Assembly (NCBI GenBank): GCA_001275005.1
Contig: JWZX01002835.1
Span: 1-31,106 of the forward strand
Source of the DNA: Chrysochromulina tobinii
Lineage: Eukaryota > Haptophyta > Prymnesiales > Chrysochromulinaceae
Direction of reading: 5' to 3'
Length of the DNA: 31,106 nt
In this document: positions 1,484 to 27,724 of the stretch, piece after piece
Layout of the letters: each line of letters opens with the position of its first letter
Numbering within the stretch: the first letter of the stretch is position 1
Position numbers and translations under genes: made by a program
The notes under the pieces: model-generated
Told to the model about the DNA's origin: nothing
Seen by the model: the letters and a program-made list of their open reading frames with translations, nothing else
The model's database searches: none

Positions 1484-4400
1484 TTGTGGCCGCGCGCCTT
1501 GAGCCGCTTGCGCATCTCGGGGAAGAAGGACTCCTTCGCCTCCGGGTTGCCCGTCAGTTGGATGTACGCGGACTCGAGCGCGTTGAGCGCGAGATTGATG
1601 TCGAGATAGCCCTCGTCGTTGTCACGCACGGGGCGTAAGAAGAAGGTGACGATGAGCTTGCGCGCGCGTGACTTGTCGGGCGGGCGCGCGCGCAGCAGCT
1701 TCCAGATGCGGCTGACGATGAACCAGCGCACGATGGTACGTGCGGCCTCGTTCTCGACCTGCTCGCAATTACGGCGCGCAATCGGGGAGGCTCATCAGGG
1801 AGGCTCATCAAGGGCAATCAGAGGTGATCAGAGGCGAGCACCTGCTCGACACGGCGCGCAACCGGGGAGGCTCATCAGGGAGGCTCATCATGGGCAATCA
1901 GAGGTGATCAGAGGCGAGCACCTGCTCGGCACGGCGCGCAATCGGGGAGGCTCATCAGGGAGGCTCATCAAGGGCAATCAGAGGTGATCAGAGGCGAGCA
2001 CCTGCTCGGCACGGCGCGCGTCCGCGGCCGCCTTGGAGAGTTGTTCGATGCGCAGGCTTGGCTGGTCGCAGTACACCTGCATGCAATGAGGGAGGGCACT
2101 CAGCATGCAATGAGGGAGGGCACTCAGCATGCAATGAGGGAGGGCACTCAGCATGCAATGAGGGAGGGCACTCAGCATGCATCGAAGGAGGGCTTTTTGC
2201 ACGGCCATCGGCACGCGGTCATCAGCATGGTCATCAGCACGGCCATCAGGGCGTCATCTGGGCGTCATCAAAGGTCATCAGCACGGTCATCAGCATGCTC
2301 CAAAAGGGCGCCCACCTCGATGTCATAGGGCATCTCCACGCCCTTCTTGTACGTCATTGGGATGAGCAGGTACGGTGTGTCGGCCTCGAGACGAAACGGT
2401 TTCGCCGTCTCGATCGCCTGACGAAACCCACTTTGGCAGCGCACGTCCTCGAGCGAGAGCGATCCGTCATCCACTGTGACGTAGAAGCCTATCCCTTCGT
2501 AATGGACGCCCACCTGAAACATAGGAAAGCCGTCCGTGGCCATCAGTGGGCCATCAGTAGGCCATCAGTAGGCCATCAAATGGCCATCAGTAGGCCATCA
2601 GGGCGTCATCAGGGCGTCATCAGGGCGTCATCAGGGCGTCATCAGGGCGTCATCAGGGCGTCATCAGGGCGTCATCAGGGCGTCATCAGGGCGTCATCTC
2701 GGAGCACTCACCTGACCCTCCGTGAAGCCGCCGCCCTCGGGCAGACGTTCACGCGACTCTTGCCGAAGGAAGAGCTCACACGTGGCCGTGCGCGAGGCGC
2801 GCATCATGTAGATAGGATTGCGCACCTGTGGGGAGAGGGCGCGCCGTAGTGAGCACTGGCATTCGAGCCGTCCATCAATGTCGAGAGGGTTGCGTACCCA
2901 GCTCGCGTGGTTGCGGCAGCCGCCCGCCGAGTTTCCCGCCCATTCGCCGGCGAGCTCGTGATGATGCCACGTCGACGGCTCAATGCGCCGCAGCTGCGCG
3001 CGCTCGTCATCCGTGTACCTGATGAAGTAGGTAATCAGGGAGGTCACTCAGGGAGGCCATCAGGGAGGTCATCAAGGAGCTCACTCAGGGAGGTCATCAG
3101 GGAGGTCATCAAGGAGCTCACTCAGGGAGGTCATCAGGGAGGTCATCAGGGAGGTCATCAAGGAGCTCACTCAGGGAGGTCATCAGGGAGGTCATCAAGG
3201 AGCTCACTCAGGGAGGTCATCAGAGAGGCCACTCAGCGTACACGAGCAGCTCGAAATCGCCCAGCTTGTGGGGCTCGAACGTGGACGGCACGATGGCGTA
3301 CGAGAGCGGAGGCTCCGCCGCGCCGCTGCCCGCGCCGCCGCGCGCCGCGCGCCCGCCGCCGCTGTAGAGCGCAAGCGCGCGCGCGCGTGCGCCCGTTGAA
3401 CGCCCTCTCGGCCCGTCTTCGTCGTGTGGGATCGGCGTCACAAACTCGGCGGCCACTTCGAAGGTGGGCGAGAAGGTCGTCTTGTCGATGATGTCGCCGC
3501 CGTCGGCCAGCTTGCGACCGTCCAAACGGAGCAACTTGCGCTCCGACTGCTCGGTAGGGAGCACTGCGACGATGAACCCCATGAGGAAGTTGGCGTCTTT
3601 GGGCTTCTTCTTCTTCTTCGACTGGACCGCCTTCTTCTTCGAGTGGAGCGCGGCTTCTGAGACTTCCGGGTTGTGGCGTGCGAGCACCACCGAGACTCGC
3701 GCCGGACGCGACAGCTGTAGATGGTACTGCTCGTTCTTGCGCCACGTGTAAAAGTTGCGGCAGCCGCCCGCGTTCGCCTCCGTCCACGCGCCCGCCACGT
3801 GTAGTGTCTTGAGAGGCGGGATGGGCTCAGGCGGCTGCTCGAGGGGCTCGGAGGTGAGGATGACGATGCGGAAGATGCCCTTGCCGCCGGGGGCGAAGGT
3901 AGACGGGATGAGGACGAACCTGCCGTAATCAGAGGCCATCAGAGGGCCATCAGCTGATTGCACGGGATGAGGGACGGACCGTCATCAGAGGCCATCAGAG
4001 GGCCATCAGCTGATTGCACGGGATGCGGGACGGACCGTCATCAGAGGCCATCAGAGGGCCATCAGCTGATTGCACGGGATGAGGGACGGACCGTAATCAG
4101 AGGTCATCAGAGGGCCATCAGCTGATTGCATGGGATGCGGGACGGACCGTTGCATAGAGAAGAGCCCGGGCTCATTCTCCTCGTCCATGGTGTTGCAGGT
4201 CACGTCACGGTACGCCATGAACGGCGTCGAGTCGACGACCTCATCTCCCTCGATCTCGTCCGAATCGAAGAGCACCCTGCGCCGGTAGACCTCATCGCCG
4301 CGCATGATGTACATACCGATCTTCTTCTCGTACACGGGGCCACCCTCGTCCCCGCCACGCTTGCGACCTCCGTCGCTCGCGGAGAGCACGCGACCCGTGA

Positions 4401-6435
4401 GCGCCGCTGGGTTGGTGCGCGGGTCGGGCTGCATGCAGCAAACGAAGGCAGGCCGTCAGTGGCAGTTGGTGTGGCAGTGCGTCGCAATACGTGGCGATCA
4501 GCTGCCAGCAGAGGCCATCAGCAGCCATCAGCAGCCTTCCGCAGCCCTCCGTAGCACTCCGTAGCACTCGCCTGCATGAGCAAGAAGACTGCCTGCGTCT
4601 CGTTCGGGCCCGTGCGGATCTCATACTGCGGATTCTTACGCCACTCTGGGAAATTGAAGCAGCCACCCGCCGTCTGCTCCGTCCACTCTCCCTCGATCTC
4701 GTAACGGCACCTGAGGAGGCAGGCAATCATAGGTGATCAGTGGCGACCCAGTGGCACTCGGATCTCCCTCAGATCTCGCTCAGATCTCGCTCGAGCTCGT
4801 GACGTCACCAGCTGCCCGGCGGCGGGCGCTCAACACGGCGCTGCCCACGCAGCAGCTTGGCCGGATTGCACTCCTGGAAGATGCGGCACACGTAGATCTT
4901 ATTAAAGTGCGCTTGGAAGTCCTCCCACGCCATCCAAAAGGTGCCATCGTCCTCGAACTGCACGTTGAGCTTCTCTCGAGCTCGCATGCCGATGGCCGTC
5001 TCCCACTCGCGAGAGTTGTCACTCCACGGGCCCTCCCACTCCTTCATACCCCAGGGGTTCCGCAGCTGGACGAGGCGCAGCTTGCCCTCGCCGTCCCCCA
5101 CCTCTTGCACGTCGATGAGCGAGTACGCGTGGTTCACGAGGATCCCCAGGTCGGTCACCTGCATGCGAACGACGGTTTGCAGCACGCACTCGGATCACTC
5201 AGCATGCACTCGGATCACTCAGCATGCACTCAGCATGCACTCAGCTGAATCTCAATCAGCATGCAAATGAGGAACCGCAGTATGCACTCAGGATGCACTC
5301 AGGATGCACTCAGGATGCAGTCAGCATGCAGTGCGGCGGCCACCTGCATCGCGCCCAGCCCGCCCTTATCCTCCACATCCGTGCGAGAAAGGGCTGCGCC
5401 GAGAAGGTAGGTCCCACCGCCGTCGTCGTGCTCGTGGCCCGCACCCTTCGAGTTGTAACGTTTGAGACGCTTCCAAAAGGAGCCATCGCCGATCTCGAAG
5501 CGAACGTCCTCATCGGTCATGTCGATCGACTCGCCCACGCCACCCGTTAGGTCCACGAGCGCCGCGCTCACCTGATGGGGGGGGCAATCAAGGGTCATCA
5601 GTGGCCATCAGCATGCAACTCTGTGGACAGTTCGCTCCTGCAGCGCCGCGCTCACCGACGCCGCCATCAAGGGCTTCGTACGAGCCGTGGCGGGCAATCA
5701 AGGGTCATCAGGGGCCATAAGCATGCAACGCTCACCGAGCCGCCATCAAGGGCTTCGTACGAGCCGTGGAGGGCAATCAAGGGTCATCAGGGGCCATAAG
5801 CATGCAACGCTCACCGAGCCGCCATCAAGGGCTTCGTACGAGCCGTGGAGCTTCGCGTACGCCTTCTCAAGCAGTGGCACCCAGAGCTCACTCGGGTCCT
5901 TGCCGTGAGCAAAGATGGGTTGGCTCTCCTCATTGCACGGGATGAGCGTGTCCACGCTCACCTCGACCCACTCACCGAACTTGTACAGCAGGAATGTGAT
6001 GAACCCCTTGTTGATGCACTCCCTCGGATCCACCCCTGGCTTGATGAGCGGCCCGAGCAGGTTGCGCGAGGCGATCGACGACATCGCGCCGAGCAGGTAG
6101 CAATCGCCGAGCTCGCCCTGCGCGACGTCGCCCGCGGCCAGGCCGTCCTTGATCAGATCGAGCTGCCCGTCCACCGCGCCCGCGATCTCGTGCGGGCGCA
6201 GCCAGCGCACCGGCTGTCCGTTGTTGAACGGCTTGTCGGCGGGCTCGCCGGTCACGTACAGTGTCGTCGGGATGTCGGCCGGAAAGCGCTGATCGGACCA
6301 CTGCGCATTGCGTGGCAGCCGCGCACACTCCTGCAAGATCTCCACCTGGGACAGATCCTGCGAGGGCGAGAGTCGCAGAGCCGCACAAACGTTGGCGGAA
6401 CAAATTCGTGGACGACGCTCATCTGATTGCAGCAC
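1456..6435 (-). CDS. Calpain-type cysteine protease, 11 exons
   Basis: Calcium-type calpain (peptidase family C2) of about 1035 residues. Exons (minus, 5' to 3'): 5815-6435, 5344-5571, 4809-5158, 4572-4710, 4148-4428, 3242-3919, 2898-3018, 2712-2825, 2316-2513, 2002-2076, 1456-1758; all phases agree and the sum is divisible by three. The active-site Cys is in QGELGDCYLLGA (about C112), His in LVNHAYSLID (about H293) and Asn in LRNPWG (about N317), with the usual 24-residue His-Asn spacing, so it should be catalytic. Three C2-like (calpain domain III) signatures follow: GEWTEQTAGGC, GAWTEANAGGC and GEWAGNSAGGC. No transmembrane segments or penta-EF-hand are seen. The first about 26 codons are uncertain: CTCTCGCCCTCGCAG before DLSQVEIL could be an acceptor, which would move the true start upstream. 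Divergent from the transporter. Confidence 0.9.
1759..2001 (-). other. Calpain intron 10 with 80-bp tandem repeats
   Basis: Joins ARRAEQ to VENEAART. Donor and acceptor both lie in GAGCAG|GT. The intron holds tandem copies with period 80 bp (GAGGCGAGCA at 1831, 1911 and 1991 on the plus strand), each repeating the exon end, donor and sense CTGAT units. Several equivalent donors therefore exist. Confidence 0.8.
2077..2315 (-). other. Calpain intron 9 with 24-bp tandem repeats
   Basis: Joins MPYDIE to VYCDQPSL (GAG|GTGGGC ... CATGCAG|GTGTAC). The acceptor half is a 24-bp unit containing CATGCAATGAGG repeated about four times (2089-2190); the donor half has CTGATGACC-type units in sense orientation. 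Confidence 0.8.
2514..2711 (-). other. Calpain intron 8 with 11-bp tandem repeats
   Basis: Joins GFTEGQ to VGVHYEGI (CAG|GTGAGT ... TTTCAG|GTGGGC). The core is about nine copies of an 11-bp unit, sense CTGATGACGCC, at 2597-2700, followed by CTGATGGCCTA units at 2530-2595. Confidence 0.85.
2826..2897 (-). other. Calpain intron 7, 72 nt, introner-like
   Basis: Joins HASW to VRNPIYMM; without splicing the C2-like repeat is interrupted, although the 72 nt can be read through in frame. The donor (GTACGCAACCCTCT) is a diverged copy of the downstream exon start (GTGCGCAATCCTATCT). The acceptor half contains a block (plus strand CTGTGGGGA, then CGCCGTAGTGAGCACT) that recurs in an intron of a different gene at 27174-27213. 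No CTGAT repeats. Confidence 0.8.
3019..3241 (-). other. Calpain intron 6, CTGAT repeat-filled
   Basis: Joins FELLV to YTDDERAQ (GT|GTACGC ... CATCAG|GTACAC). The body is an array of sense CTGATGACCTCC and CTGAGTGAGCTCC units. Donor and downstream exon start share GTAC-C. Confidence 0.85.
3920..4147 (-). other. Calpain intron 5 with 56-bp tandem repeats
   Basis: Joins FSMQR to FVLIPSTF in phase 2. A 56-bp unit is repeated four times (TGATTG on the plus strand at 3955, 4011, 4067, 4123). Each unit contains a copy of the downstream exon start: exon GTTCGTCCTCATCCCG, intron copies GTCCGTCCCKCATCCC, so every unit presents a potential GT donor. Confidence 0.85.
4429..4571 (-). other. Calpain intron 4, GC-AG
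   Basis: Joins FLLMQ to PDPRTNPA. The donor is CATGCAG|GCGAGT (GC rather than GT) and the acceptor GCATGCAG|CCCGAC; CATGCAG is present at both ends. Confidence 0.7.
4711..4808 (-). other. Calpain intron 3, donor copies next exon
   Basis: Joins PPPGSW to CRYEIEGEW in phase 2. The intron starts GTGACGTCACGAGCTCGAG and the downstream exon GTGCCGTTACGAGATCGAG: 16 of 19 positions match. A few CTGAG/CTGAT units separate them; acceptor CCTCCTCAG. Confidence 0.85.
5159..5343 (-). other. Calpain intron 2, CTGAGTGCATG repeats
   Basis: Joins LGAMQ to VTDLGILVNH. Donor GATGCAG|GTGGCCG and acceptor GCATGCAG|GTGACCG resemble each other; the body is sense CTGAGTGCATC/CTGAGTGCATG units. Confidence 0.85.
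5572..5814 (-). other. Calpain intron 1 with 79-bp tandem repeats
   Basis: Joins EALDGGS to VSAALVDL. The exon end and donor are present three times (CGAGCCGTGG on the plus strand at 5681, 5760, 5839; period 79 bp). The copy nearest the acceptor has donor GTGAGCGCGGCGCT, identical for 14 bases to the downstream exon start, so the uninterrupted ancestral sequence can be read directly. Confidence 0.9.
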
Positions 6436-19500: not shown

Positions 19501-20742
19501 CTACTGCGACGTAGCTTGCGCCAGCTGGCCCCAGCGCGACACGCATCCCTCCATTGCCTCGTATCGGCGGGAGGCCTCGGCGGCGCTCTCCGCCGACGAC
19601 CCGACCGACTCCTTCATTCGCCGGAACGCGTCGGCTTCGTCCGGGCACACCTGCTGCGCGATGCATGCCATCAGCCCGATATGGGCGACGGCGCAGCTGC
19701 GCTCCGAGTCGCACGCCTGCAGCGCGGCCATCTTCTCCGCACATGTCTGCTGCACGTGCTCGACAAGGCGCTCGCCCCCCCGCCGATCGGCCGCTGCTGC
19801 TGCCGCAGTTGGCGCGGCCTCCACCGCCGCGGGGACAGGCGCCGTCCCGAGCACGGCCTCCGCCGCGGCGGGGGCAGGCGCCGTCCCGAGCACCTTCGGC
19901 AGGCCCGCGAACGTGGCCTGCACCCTATCGAGCACGTCGGCGAGCGAGTCGCCCGCGGGGCGCACGTCGATCGAGATCGAAGGCACCGCGCCCTCCTCGT
20001 GCATGCTCACAGGCAGCCTGTCGTTCGGACGGGCGCTGGCGACGTCGTAATAGTCGATGATGTACCGCACCTCCTTGCCGCAACGGTCCACGATCCAGTC
20101 ATGACGATCAAAGGGGCGAGAGGCGAGGCCGAGGTAGTACTTGCATGCAGCCTTGGGCGAGAGCTCGTCGGGGCGGCCCATGAAGCTCTTGAGCGTGCGC
20201 GGTTGCTTGCATTCGGAGTGCCGCTCCTCCCAGGCGAGGACTTGCTTCCACGTGCTCTCATTCATGTTGTTGTGGATGGCCACGACCGCCTCCATCGCGT
20301 CCTCGTCCACGCCGTCGCCCTTGCCCTTGCGCACCAGTGCGTTGTAGAACATCTGCGCCGACGGGTAGACCCACTTCTCGCCCTTCCCGTCTGGGATGGT
20401 CGATTCGACGCGCTCGACCGGCAGCACGGCCGCCTGGCCAGGAGCTGGCGTCTGCGCGAGAGCAGGCATCATGTTGAGCGGGTTGACGGGCGCGTCGGAG
20501 GAGCACGGTGCCGGCTTGCGCATCACTGGACAGCCACCATCGCCGCTGCTCGAAGAGCTGGCAGCCGCGGCCGGCGTGGCCGGCGTGGCCGCCGCCGTGG
20601 ACACGAACACGGAGGCTGAGCCCTTGTGCATGACCGGGCATCCGCTGATCTGGCTTGAAGCGTCAGCAGGTGGCGGCGTGCTACCGCCAGTGGCACTGCA
20701 GGTGCTGAGCGCGCGCATGACGCCGCCGGCGAACCACGACAT
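19501..20742 (-). CDS. HCCS: Holocytochrome c synthase (cytochrome c heme lyase) with C-terminal CX9C pair
   Basis: 413 residues from ATG 20740-20742 (an upstream in-frame extension has only a GTG). HCCS attaches heme to the CXXCH of apocytochrome c in the mitochondrial intermembrane space. Two CP heme-regulatory motifs (CPVMHK near 35, CPVMRK near 71), NPLNMMP, WVYPSAQMFYNAL, the essential heme-ligand His in AIHNNMNESTW (about H157), WEERHSECKQPRTLKSFMGRP, SPKAACKYYLGLASRPFDRHDW and SISIDVRPAGD are all canonical. After an Ala/Pro linker the protein adds TCAEKMAALQACDSERSC and CAVAHIGLMAC: C334-X9-C344 and C350-X9-C360, the twin CX9C pattern of intermembrane-space CHCH proteins imported by the Mia40 pathway. 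This tail is not part of the ordinary enzyme. No introns. Confidence 0.93.
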   Translation of the reverse strand: MSWFAGGVMRALSTCSATGGSTPPPADASSQISGCPVMHKGSASVFVSTAAATPATPAAAASSSSSGDGGCPVMRKPAPCSSDAPVNPLNMMPALAQTPAPGQAAVLPVERVESTIPDGKGEKWVYPSAQMFYNALVRKGKGDGVDEDAMEAVVAIHNNMNESTWKQVLAWEERHSECKQPRTLKSFMGRPDELSPKAACKYYLGLASRPFDRHDWIVDRCGKEVRYIIDYYDVASARPNDRLPVSMHEEGAVPSISIDVRPAGDSLADVLDRVQATFAGLPKVLGTAPAPAAAEAVLGTAPVPAAVEAAPTAAAAAADRRGGERLVEHVQQTCAEKMAALQACDSERSCAVAHIGLMACIAQQVCPDEADAFRRMKESVGSSAESAAEASRRYEAMEGCVSRWGQLAQATSQ

Positions 20743-25282: not shown

Positions 25283-27724
25283 CCGCCGGTGCGGCCGATG
25301 CGATCTCCATACGCCTCGTCGGCCGAGATGCGATCTCCGTACGCCTCGTCGGCCGAGATGCGATGCAGATGATGACCTGGGTGATCTGGGGGCGGCGAGG
25401 GTCGCAGCCCCAAGGACGATGTGTCCCCGTGTTGGAGGCGCTGCTGCGGCGACGAGCGCTCGTCCCGAGATTGCATCTCGATCTGCGCGGCCATCTCGCG
25501 CTGCAGCCGTTTCGTCATCGGATGCTCCGATTGGGGCGACGGTTTCGTCATCGGATGGTCCGATTGGGGCGACGGCGGCGGCGCCCAAACCGCCCCAACC
25601 TCCGGATCCTCGAGATCGAGATCATCATCTCCCATCAAAAAGAGACTCGGGTCGAACATCTCGGCCGAGAGCCCCGCGGCCGCCGCCGGGCTGTTGGCAC
25701 ACGCGAGATCGGCGCATGCAAGCTCACGCAGCGCCTCTGCCGCGGCGCGTGCGCCTGAGCGTTGCGTGTGCGCTGATCGCTCCTTCCGGCTGCCCCCAGC
25801 GCCGCCGCCGCCTCCAGCAGCGCCGCCGCCGCCTCCAGCAGCAACGCCGCCGCCTCCAGCAGCGCCGCCGCCGCCGCCGGCGGCGGTCGTCCCGTTTCGG
25901 GGCAGCGGGTTCGTCACAGAGGCGTCGTTCTCGTCAGCCACAGCCTCTCCCATCCGCAGCTTGGAAGACGGCGCTGTGCCGGGCACCATCGCGGGCCCAG
26001 CGCCACCGGCCGATCCGGACACGCCCGACACGGCGCGGGACGATCCCAAATTAGGAACGTCGCCCGAGACGGCGCGCGCGGCCGCATGCGCGAGGTAGGG
26101 CTCGCGGCCTGCCCCGCAGGAAGGCGCCCATGACGGCGCCCCACAGGAAGGCGCCCACGACGGCGCCCCGCAGGAAGGCGCCCACGACGGCGCCCCACAG
26201 GAAGGCGCCCATGACGGCGCCCCGCAGGAAGGCGCCCACGACGGCGCCCTACAGGAAGGCGCCCACGACGGCGCCCCACAGGAAGGCGGCTGCGACGAGG
26301 GCAAGAGCTCGGGCTGCGCCCACGACGGCGCCGGGGGCGGCGGCGAGCCTCCGCGGGAGGAGCGCTCAGCACGGCGCTCGTCGGCCCCGTGCACCAGCGC
26401 CATGTTGAGCGCCATGCGGCTCTCGGCGTCGCGGGCGTACCTGATGAGGGAGGTCATCAGGGAGGTCACTCAGGGAGGCCATCAAGGAGGTCATCAGAGA
26501 GGTCATCAGGGAGGCCATCAGGGAGGCCACCAGATAGGCGATCCGCGCACATGGTACGCTTGTCCTCCATGTAACGGCCAATGATGAGGGAGGCAATCCG
26601 GCGGGGGCACTCAAGAGCCATCCGCGCACATGGTGCGTTTGTCTTCCATGTAACGGCCGATGATGCGCTCGGTACGCGCCTTGGCGATTGCCTGATCGCT
26701 CGGTGTGAAGCCGCGTCCTTCGCTCACAAGTGAGGCGATCTCCGCGCCCATCTCGGCGGCCATCAGAAGCGCGGCCTCGTTGATGCGAGCCTGATGAGGG
26801 TGACCTCGAGCAAGGCGGCACTCAGTGGCAATCAGTGGCAATTAACGACACTCACCTGGAGGGTGACCTCGAGCAAGGCGGCACTCAGTGGCAATCAGTG
26901 GCAATTAACGACACTCACCTGGAGGGTGACCTCGAGCAAGGCGGCACTCAGTGGCAATCAGTGGCAATTAACGACACTCACCTGGAGGGTGACCTCGAGC
27001 AAGGCGGCAATCAGTGGCAATCAGTGGCAATTAACGACACTCACCTGGAGGGTGACCTCGAGCAAGGCGGCAATCAGTGGCAATCAGAGGCAACTAACGA
27101 CACTCACCTGGAGGGTGACCTCGAGCAAGGCGGCGCGAGATCGCATCTCGAGCTCGACCCGCGCCGCGCGCACCTGTGGGGAAGCGCAGGGCGCCGTAGT
27201 GAGCACTTGCATGCAGGGGGAGATCGCATCTCGAGCTCGACCCGCGCCGCGCGCACCTCCATCTCGCCCACGAGATCATCGATGCTCGGTGGCGAGATCC
27301 TCGCGCAGCGACCGCCGCCACCGCCGCCACCGCCGCTTCCTTCTCCGCCGCTGCCGCCGCCCTCAACACCGCCGCTGCTGTTCACACCGCCGCTGCTGTT
27401 CACACCGCCGCTGCCGTTCACACCACCGCTGCTGTTCGAGGCCTGGACCGCAGCCTGTCCGCGTGTGAAGGCATCCGGTGTGAAGGCATCCGGTGTGAAG
27501 GCGGCATCATCCGCCCGACGGAGCGACGAGATCGCACTCTCGACCACATCGAGATTGCTTCTCGCCGGAGCTCGCACGCCCTCGACCGCGCCCACGACGG
27601 CGCCCCCATCGGCGCCCACGACGGCGCCAGGCGCCGGCGCCTCCTGCGTCGCCCACGCTGGCGCCTCTTGCGCCGCCCACGTGTCCGCGCCCGAGTCGCC
27701 CATTCGAAAAAGGCGAGCGCCCAT
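22078..27724 (-). CDS. Very large low-complexity protein of unknown function, 4 exons
   Basis: Exons 27257-27724, 27108-27173, 26630-26790 and 22078-26440 give about 1685 residues in consistent phase. Start taken at ATG 27722-27724 (MGARLFRMGDSGADTWAAQ); the frame stays open upstream into the divergent gene, so this could be extended. The only stretch that looks conserved and helical is residues about 145-245, spread over four exons: SIDDLVGEME, VRAARVELEMRSRAALLEVT, ARINEAALLMAAEMGAEIAS, ERIIGRYMEDKRTM, YARDAESRMALNMALVHGAD. The rest is Ala/Pro/Ser/Gly-rich with repeats (9-residue APSWAPSCG repeat, recurrent AVSGA/AVVGA, IHTPA, AREAAPVT). A second more ordered patch is HTLKQAVNEAAAARSMQLGWKWKLL followed by VLSAFFDAFVRFFEG. 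No known domain. The helical N-terminal part is probably the functional core. Confidence 0.75.
26117..26288 (-). repeat. 27-bp coding tandem repeat
   Basis: Unit starts CAGGAAGGCGCC on the plus strand at 26117, 26144, 26171, 26198, 26225, 26252 and, partially, 26279. It encodes the 9-residue repeat GAPSWAPSC in the large protein. Copies are nearly identical, indicating recent expansion. Confidence 0.95.
26441..26629 (-). other. Large-gene intron 3, contains copy of upstream exon end
   Basis: Joins EDKRTM to YARDAESRM in phase 2 (donor ACCAT|GTGCGCGG, acceptor CCTCATCAG|GTACGCCC). A second copy of the upstream exon end (about 45 bp, encoding IIGRYMEDKRTMCAD) lies inside the intron at about 26540-26585, followed by CTGATGACCTCC sense units. 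Confidence 0.8.
26791..27107 (-). other. Large-gene intron 2 with 63-bp tandem repeats
   Basis: Joins LLEVTLQ to ARINEAAL. CTCACCT on the plus strand recurs at 26851, 26914, 26977, 27040 and 27103, an exact 63-bp period. Each unit repeats the upstream exon end, a full CAG|GTGAGTGTCG donor, and CTGATTGCCA/CTGAGTGCCG sense units. Five donors compete for one acceptor (CATCAG|GCTCGC). Confidence 0.92.
27137..27258 (-). repeat. Perfect 39-bp direct repeat flanking an intron core
   Basis: Copies at 27137-27175 and 27220-27258 are identical over 39 bases (period 83). One copy is coding exon sequence (VRAARVELEMRS); the other is the first part of the intron. Confidence 0.95.
27174..27256 (-). other. 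Large-gene intron 1, 83 nt, recent introner-like insertion
   Basis: Joins LVGEME to VRAARVELEM in phase 0. The intron starts GTGCGCGCGGCGCGGG, identical to the downstream exon start through 37 bases, and ends in a core TGCTCACTACGGCG...TTCCCCACAG that is shared with calpain intron 7. Unspliced, the 83 nt shift the frame. Confidence 0.92.

Follow-up and report, generated by a model that had tools for sequence, protein, structure and literature searches.

Two short introns of a probable introner family with a defined core and duplicated exon sequence

Two short introns in the window, the 31,106-nucleotide stretch of DNA analysed here, are very probably members of one introner family which spreads by copy and paste, a new copy being made up of an insert corresponding to the 3' half of an intron and a duplication of approximately 30 nt of exon. 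What the sequence establishes is the size of the family, a defined core, the duplication of exon, a preserved reading frame, exonic sites resembling GT(A/G)CG and a few carry-overs of donor sequence. The origin of new spliceosomal introns is an old open question, and to our knowledge the introners understood so far are DNA transposons. In the present family, which has over 2,000 matches and in which 20 of 59 duplications are near-identical, the anatomy differs from that of DNA-transposon introners. Its donor-exon tags allow individual moves from donor to recipient to be traced, and the choice between a route through RNA and one through DNA becomes testable in a living alga.

The two introns and the family core

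The following features were assigned in the window:
2826..2897, minus strand: introner copy A, an intron of 72 nt interrupting a calpain-like gene and reading GTACGC...CCCCACAG
2841..2861, minus strand: core of copy A, the 21-mer TGCCAGTGCTCACTACGGCGC, with two mismatches to the family consensus and CTCAC as the proposed branch point
2826..2833, minus strand: 3' splice end of copy A, CCCCACAG
2883..2897, minus strand: 5' end of intron A, exon-derived, diverged from the exon start at 2811-2825 but matching it by eye at 12 of 15 positions
2811..2825, minus strand: exon copy of the intron A duplication
27174..27256, minus strand: introner copy B, an 83-nt intron
27191..27211, minus strand: core of copy B, TGCAAGTGCTCACTACGGCGC, with one mismatch to the family consensus
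27174..27181, minus strand: 3' splice end of copy B, CCCCACAG
27220..27256, minus strand: left copy of the exact 37-nt target duplication, which forms the 5' end of intron B and starts GTGCGC
27137..27173, minus strand: right (exon) copy of the copy B duplication

The initial annotation had reported two plus-strand blocks at both sites, in like order and with identical spacing. Block CTGTGGGGA was found at 2826-2834 and 27174-27182, and block CGCCGTAGTGAGCACT at 2842-2857 and 27192-27207, which confirms the coordinates, strand and order; the spacing is 7 nt in copy A and 9 nt in copy B. Read on the minus strand, the introns span 2826-2897 and 27174-27256. A private exon-derived duplication had been claimed for each intron. 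That of copy B is exact, whereas that of copy A is imperfect, 12 of its first 15 nt agreeing by eye (GTACGCAACCCTCTC / GTGCGCAATCCTATC), and the calpain copy did not reach the cut-off when the duplication test (described below) was run without the AG condition.

Within the window the exact 16-mer of the second block occurs at the sites of copies A and B only, and with up to three mismatches it has 10 matches, where 100 shuffles gave 0.36 on average. Joining the exons of copy A yields GEWAGNSAGGCRNHASW|VRNPIYMMRASRT, with VRNPIYMM directly after the junction. The joined calpain exons align across this junction to calpain-7 (PDB 2qfe, E 0.0016; query 19-59, junction 38/39); a Pfam scan of them gave no match at E 0.001. 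Directly adjoining copy B is a tandem array at 26796-27134, in which a 63-nt unit containing exon-like sequence and a CAG|GTGAGT boundary is repeated 5.4 times. Further introns of the window hold tandem arrays with CTGAT/ATCAG units.

The assembly containing the window (53,154,812 bases in 2,253 contigs) was searched for additional copies. The exact 16-mer is present 68 times in these 53 Mb, and its reversed control is absent; the case of only two copies genome-wide therefore does not apply. The 21-mer TGCAAGTGCTCACTACGGCGC, with three or fewer mismatches, gave 2,236 matches (1,066 on one strand, 1,170 on the other) against 6 for the control. The exact 19-mer AAGTGCTCACCACGGCGCC was found 362 times, and the 19-mer core followed by CCCCACAGGT within 25 nt 192 times, with controls of 0 in both searches. 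Hundreds of copies with private flanking duplications had been anticipated for an introner family, and these counts bear out that reading, as does the finding that 59 of 89 copies have a GT/GC-led duplication.

In the sense of transcription the core reads GCATGCAAGTGCTCAC(C/T)ACGGCGCC and is followed by a pyrimidine tract and CCCCACAG. The CACCACGG form is commoner than CACTACGG; copies A and B belong to the T subfamily, which is rarer than the CACCACGG form. The conserved block starts sharply at GCATGC, outside the query (G in 93% at -3; no base above 62% from -4 outward), and fades past GGCGCC into the pyrimidine tract. The CTCAC motif is the putative branch point. The host genes of the family are unrelated, including calpain, dual-specificity phosphatase, JmjC, gelsolin and RNB-domain genes.

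For detailed reading, 154 copies with up to four mismatches were collected from the 16-mer loci, the 21-mer loci (largely the same places), 30 loci with the core and CCCCACAGGT, and the window, and were reduced by shared flanking words to 89 non-redundant copies out of the more than 2,000 matches. The 30 loci, having been picked by the core with CCCCACAGGT, bias the sample toward intron ends, and the sample holds a few rows with four mismatches, such as that at position 19751 of the window, which possibly are chance matches.

Exon duplication, insertion site and reading frame

A copy was scored as duplicated when a GT- or GC-led stretch to the left of the core recurred right after a downstream AG with a score of at least 10. 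This was the case in 59 of the 89 copies and in none of 441 swapped pairs. Within the set selected by the 16-mer only, supplemented with three window rows, 26 of 38 copies passed. When the AG condition was omitted the threshold was reached by 65/89 copies and by 6/262 swapped pairs. A first run on the 154 redundant copies placed 56 above the 99th percentile of the control, as against 5 of 455 controls, a control which is spoiled by overlapping loci in that set. The intron length predicted from the duplication was 58-151 nt with a median of 76 nt (n = 59). Near-identical duplications (at least 20 nt, 96%) were present in 20 of the 59 and had lengths of 20-37 nt (median 30).

The CCCCACAG tail was found in 44 of the 59 duplicated copies, and within 40 nt in only 23 of 37 copies of the 16-mer set; L039, L045, L022 and L015 are insertions lacking it. 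A clear GT/AG duplication was absent in 30 of the 89 non-redundant copies, among them copies that look old (the calpain one), full-length copies (such as L005) and inserts in which the 3' splice end is missing. Some of them, such as the calpain copy, may be old. Many copies thus lie at intron ends as had been proposed, but the proposal that all do was too strong.

In the 59 pairs, the right (exon) copy begins with G (98%), T (83%), G/A (79%), C (61%), G (66%) and C/T (81%), the composition of the left (intron) copy is nearly equal, and the base preceding the insertion site is G in 85%. Since the exon copy resembles the intron copy, the insertion sites already looked like GT(A/G)CG. The motif CCCCACAGGTRCG occurs 449 times genome-wide, compared with 3 for the reversed control. 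The first six bases of the two copies were equal in 40 pairs and different in 19; among the latter the intron copy was closer to the 5' splice consensus in 11, further from it in 2 and tied in 6, which is what selection for splicing on the left copy would produce. Duplication length and the length of the 5' extension were negatively correlated (-0.46, n = 59), in agreement with selection that keeps the 5' splice site at least a certain distance from the branch point.

Both flanks of each of the 59 copies were scored with a codon model built from frames of the window. Coding was sense on both sides in 35, antisense on both sides in 3 and mixed in 21, so that the sense orientation suggested at first held for the majority and not for all. 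Once the intron was removed, the best frames on the left and right agreed in 44 of 59 copies, where one third would be expected, and the frames rejoined in 33 of the 40 introns with a length not divisible by three. A cruder strand test of the 89 copies classed 68 as sense, 40 strongly so, and 7 as strongly antisense; these 7 include copy B, whose scored flank enters a tandem-repeat intron, and the doubtful row at window position 19751.

A Pfam scan of nine peptides revealed a domain across the junction in three, a domain off the junction in three (EMP70, starting at the junction, a second gelsolin and an F-box-like domain) and no domain in three. The domains across the junction were:
DSPc, locus L099: residues 58-190, junction at 150, inside HCQQGVSRSASLVI|AYVMW
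JmjC, locus L097: residues 70-183, junction at 150
gelsolin, locus L125: residues 99-164, junction at 150

At locus L056 an RNB domain likewise spans the junction. In all, protein-domain homology crosses five junctions (DSPc, JmjC, gelsolin, RNB and calpain), and exact splicing of the copies is predicted from frame and homology.

Full-length forms and donor traces

The core class had been regarded as a second intron class, distinct from introns with CTGAT filler. This did not hold, since the CTGAT-type introns include a full-length version of the same element, GTACGTTGATTGCCACTGATGACCTGCC(T)TGCATGCAAGTGCTCAC..., which joins the CTGAT type to the core type. The 5' end GTACGTTGATTGCCACTGATG, with two or fewer mismatches, has 210 matches (control 0), and exact joins of the 5' half to the core, GATGACCTGCC followed by GCATGCAAG within 4 nt, number 101 (control 0). 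Full forms extending from a GTACG-like end to the core were read at L005, L027, L035, L044 and in two places at L100. Because these carry both the 5' half and the core, the CTGAT introns and the core class are ends of one series, made up of a complete intron and many 5'-shortened copies. CTGAT-rich introns without the core are also present.

In a few copies there is coding sequence that belongs to a different host gene, which indicates that introns served as templates. The clearest layout is that of L063, in which its own exon copy (...CAGCTCG) is followed by GAGACCCGCG, GCCCTCGGCATGC and the core. The extra stretch is native coding sequence of the RNB-domain gene at L056 (exon CTCGACTCGGAGACCCGCGACCCC), the intron of which is present as two tandem units, and at the join the sequence CTCG is common to both genes. 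By reading, donor and recipient were also paired for L104 and L102 (one contig, with the same 3' part), for window copy B and L015 (with TCGAGATGC common at the join), and for L006 with both L009 and L057; the direction of copying in each pair is the one that the sequences suggest. L060 and L001 have a common extension to which no source was assigned. Altogether 43 pairs shared an extension scoring at least 10, and among the pairs listed these were mainly tandem neighbours or short matches. The idea that every 5' extension is a donor exon was dropped after genome-wide searches with two long extensions, of which that of L113 had no second place and that of L125 had one imperfect partner, which did not reveal a source, so that neither gave a clear donor.

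Tandem units of the introner core were noted on contigs C608, C665, C244, C791, C1589 and C2193 of the assembly (G000) and at L028, L106 and L119. In the loci that were read, the exon duplication is repeated along with the core. Such repetition implies that introns lengthen by whole units.

Proposed mechanism and comparison with known elements

Based on these features, the insert would be a copy, about 40 nt in length, of the 3' half of a family intron already present in the genome. It would begin about 14-20 nt before the proposed branch point, or sometimes further 5', and run as far as the terminal AG. It would land in an exon, beside sequence already resembling AG|GT(A/G)CG, and about 30 nt of this exon would be duplicated at insertion. 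The upstream target copy would become the new 5' splice site and the first half of the intron, the insert would supply the branch point, pyrimidine tract and 3' splice site, and splicing would restore the original coding sequence. The intermediate may be intron RNA reverse-transcribed at a staggered nick, with which the fixed 3' end, variable 5' end and long duplication agree, or a DNA copy arising from break repair.

The first of these, in which a retroelement enzyme would copy an excised family intron into DNA at a staggered nick (target-primed reverse transcription), is plausible and falls only a little short of probable. Copies made in this way should stop precisely at AG on their 3' side, be shortened on their 5' side and lie between target duplications; CCCCACAG ends most of the duplicated copies (44/59), the 5' ends vary, and complete 5' halves exist (101 joins, 210 5'-end matches) beside the 2,236 core matches. 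The assembly yields 26 matches to reverse-transcriptase domains, 22 of them over the cut-off and none tied to the family. Selection for exact splicing would fix the 3' end as well, and in L015 and L039 the join falls within the core or directly behind it, and CCCCACAG is absent. In a more specific form, which is put forward tentatively, the family would be an RNA-mediated introner, its excised introns being reverse-transcribed, with 5' truncation, into exonic AG|GT sites with duplications of about 30 nt. If true, introns would be retrocopying elements, and new copies would be half intron and half exon, with tags of the source gene.

Repair of staggered breaks, copying a piece of an introner through short homologies, with selection for splicing keeping the precise products, is possible rather than probable. 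The short homologies at the 5' joins of L063 (CTCG) and L015 (TCGAGATGC) are of this kind, as are the G or AG which the 3' joins have in common with the exon, the inserts without a 3' end, and the multiplication of duplication-plus-insert units in tandem at several places. Repair alone would nevertheless leave unexplained why one and the same 26-nt block, sharply bounded on its left, recurs, and why one family has more than 2,000 copies.

An ordinary DNA-transposon introner, that is, a non-autonomous element which is bounded by terminal inverted repeats and makes a short target duplication, seems unlikely. Such a mechanism is known for introners elsewhere, and there too the target duplication gives one splice site, but the ends GCATGCAAG... 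and ...CCCCACAG are, by direct reading, not inverted repeats of each other, and duplications of about 30 nt are far longer than the 2-10 bp usual for DNA transposons. Chance convergence or splice-site conservation, or tandem duplication of an AGGT-containing exon without a mobile insert, is highly improbable: branch points and 3' splice sites are expected to be alike in all introns and the window is rich in tandem repeats (84 rows), but a common core of 21-26 nt goes far beyond the splice consensus (2,236 matches against 6), tandem exon duplication alone cannot place one core in unrelated genes, and the carry-over of donor exons speaks against it.

As in the DNA-transposon introners of Micromonas and Aureococcus, many near-identical candidate introns lie in sense orientation in unrelated genes, one splice site coming from the target duplication and the other from the element. 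Unlike those, the present copies have no inverted terminal repeats by direct reading, their duplication is about 30 nt and not a few, and the insert is only about 40 nt and may carry an exon of the donor gene. The introner-like elements of Dothideomycetes (fungi) are also short, multiplying spliceosomal introns, but are whole introns with both splice sites, whereas the copies described here are mostly half-introns completed by host exon. In many copies the pattern of a fixed 3' end, variable 5' truncation and duplications of tens of nucleotides resembles that of truncated retrocopies of the LINE/SINE (target-primed) type; here, however, no poly(A) or other tail was noticed and the 3' end is a splice site. 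The model of tandem exon duplication at AGGT has in common the creation of a new 5' splice site from duplicated exonic AG|GT, but in the present family a common foreign core between the copies brings the 3' splice site.

Origin from U6 snRNA was considered and dropped. The core sequence GTGCTCACTACGGC resembles the start of U6 in other species, but the single U6 of this genome begins GUUUUGGACUCUUCGGAG, unlike the core. This gene, the sole U6 snRNA gene found in the assembly, is at L096 1501-1693 (G000:C427:6299-6491, minus strand). Its conserved core has an insertion of about 85 nt (GTGAAG...CACAG) between AGCATG and GCCCC, which from its sequence looks like a spliceosomal intron and contains TGCTCACCA, as does the introner core.

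Viral carriage was likewise set aside. One IMG/VR contig, IMGVR_UViG_3300027760_000958 (L130), was matched at 4495-4515 of 4554, that is, at its very end; positions 4495-4554 hold the introner core and 3' splice end, and the remainder has terminase-like and other phage-like frames. The contig is probably a chimeric metagenome assembly, which would point to the presence of the alga, or of a relative, in the sample concerned. The longer introner pattern had no match in IMG/VR. In the prokaryote genome collection, the 19-mer core was found in four contigs, with one match each.

Matches to reverse-transcriptase domains in the assembly are mostly in long open frames (contigs C2236, C1050 and C1358 of G000, and others). 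The assembly also has 58 matches to light-harvesting proteins, and the host is probably a GC-rich, photosynthetic eukaryote.
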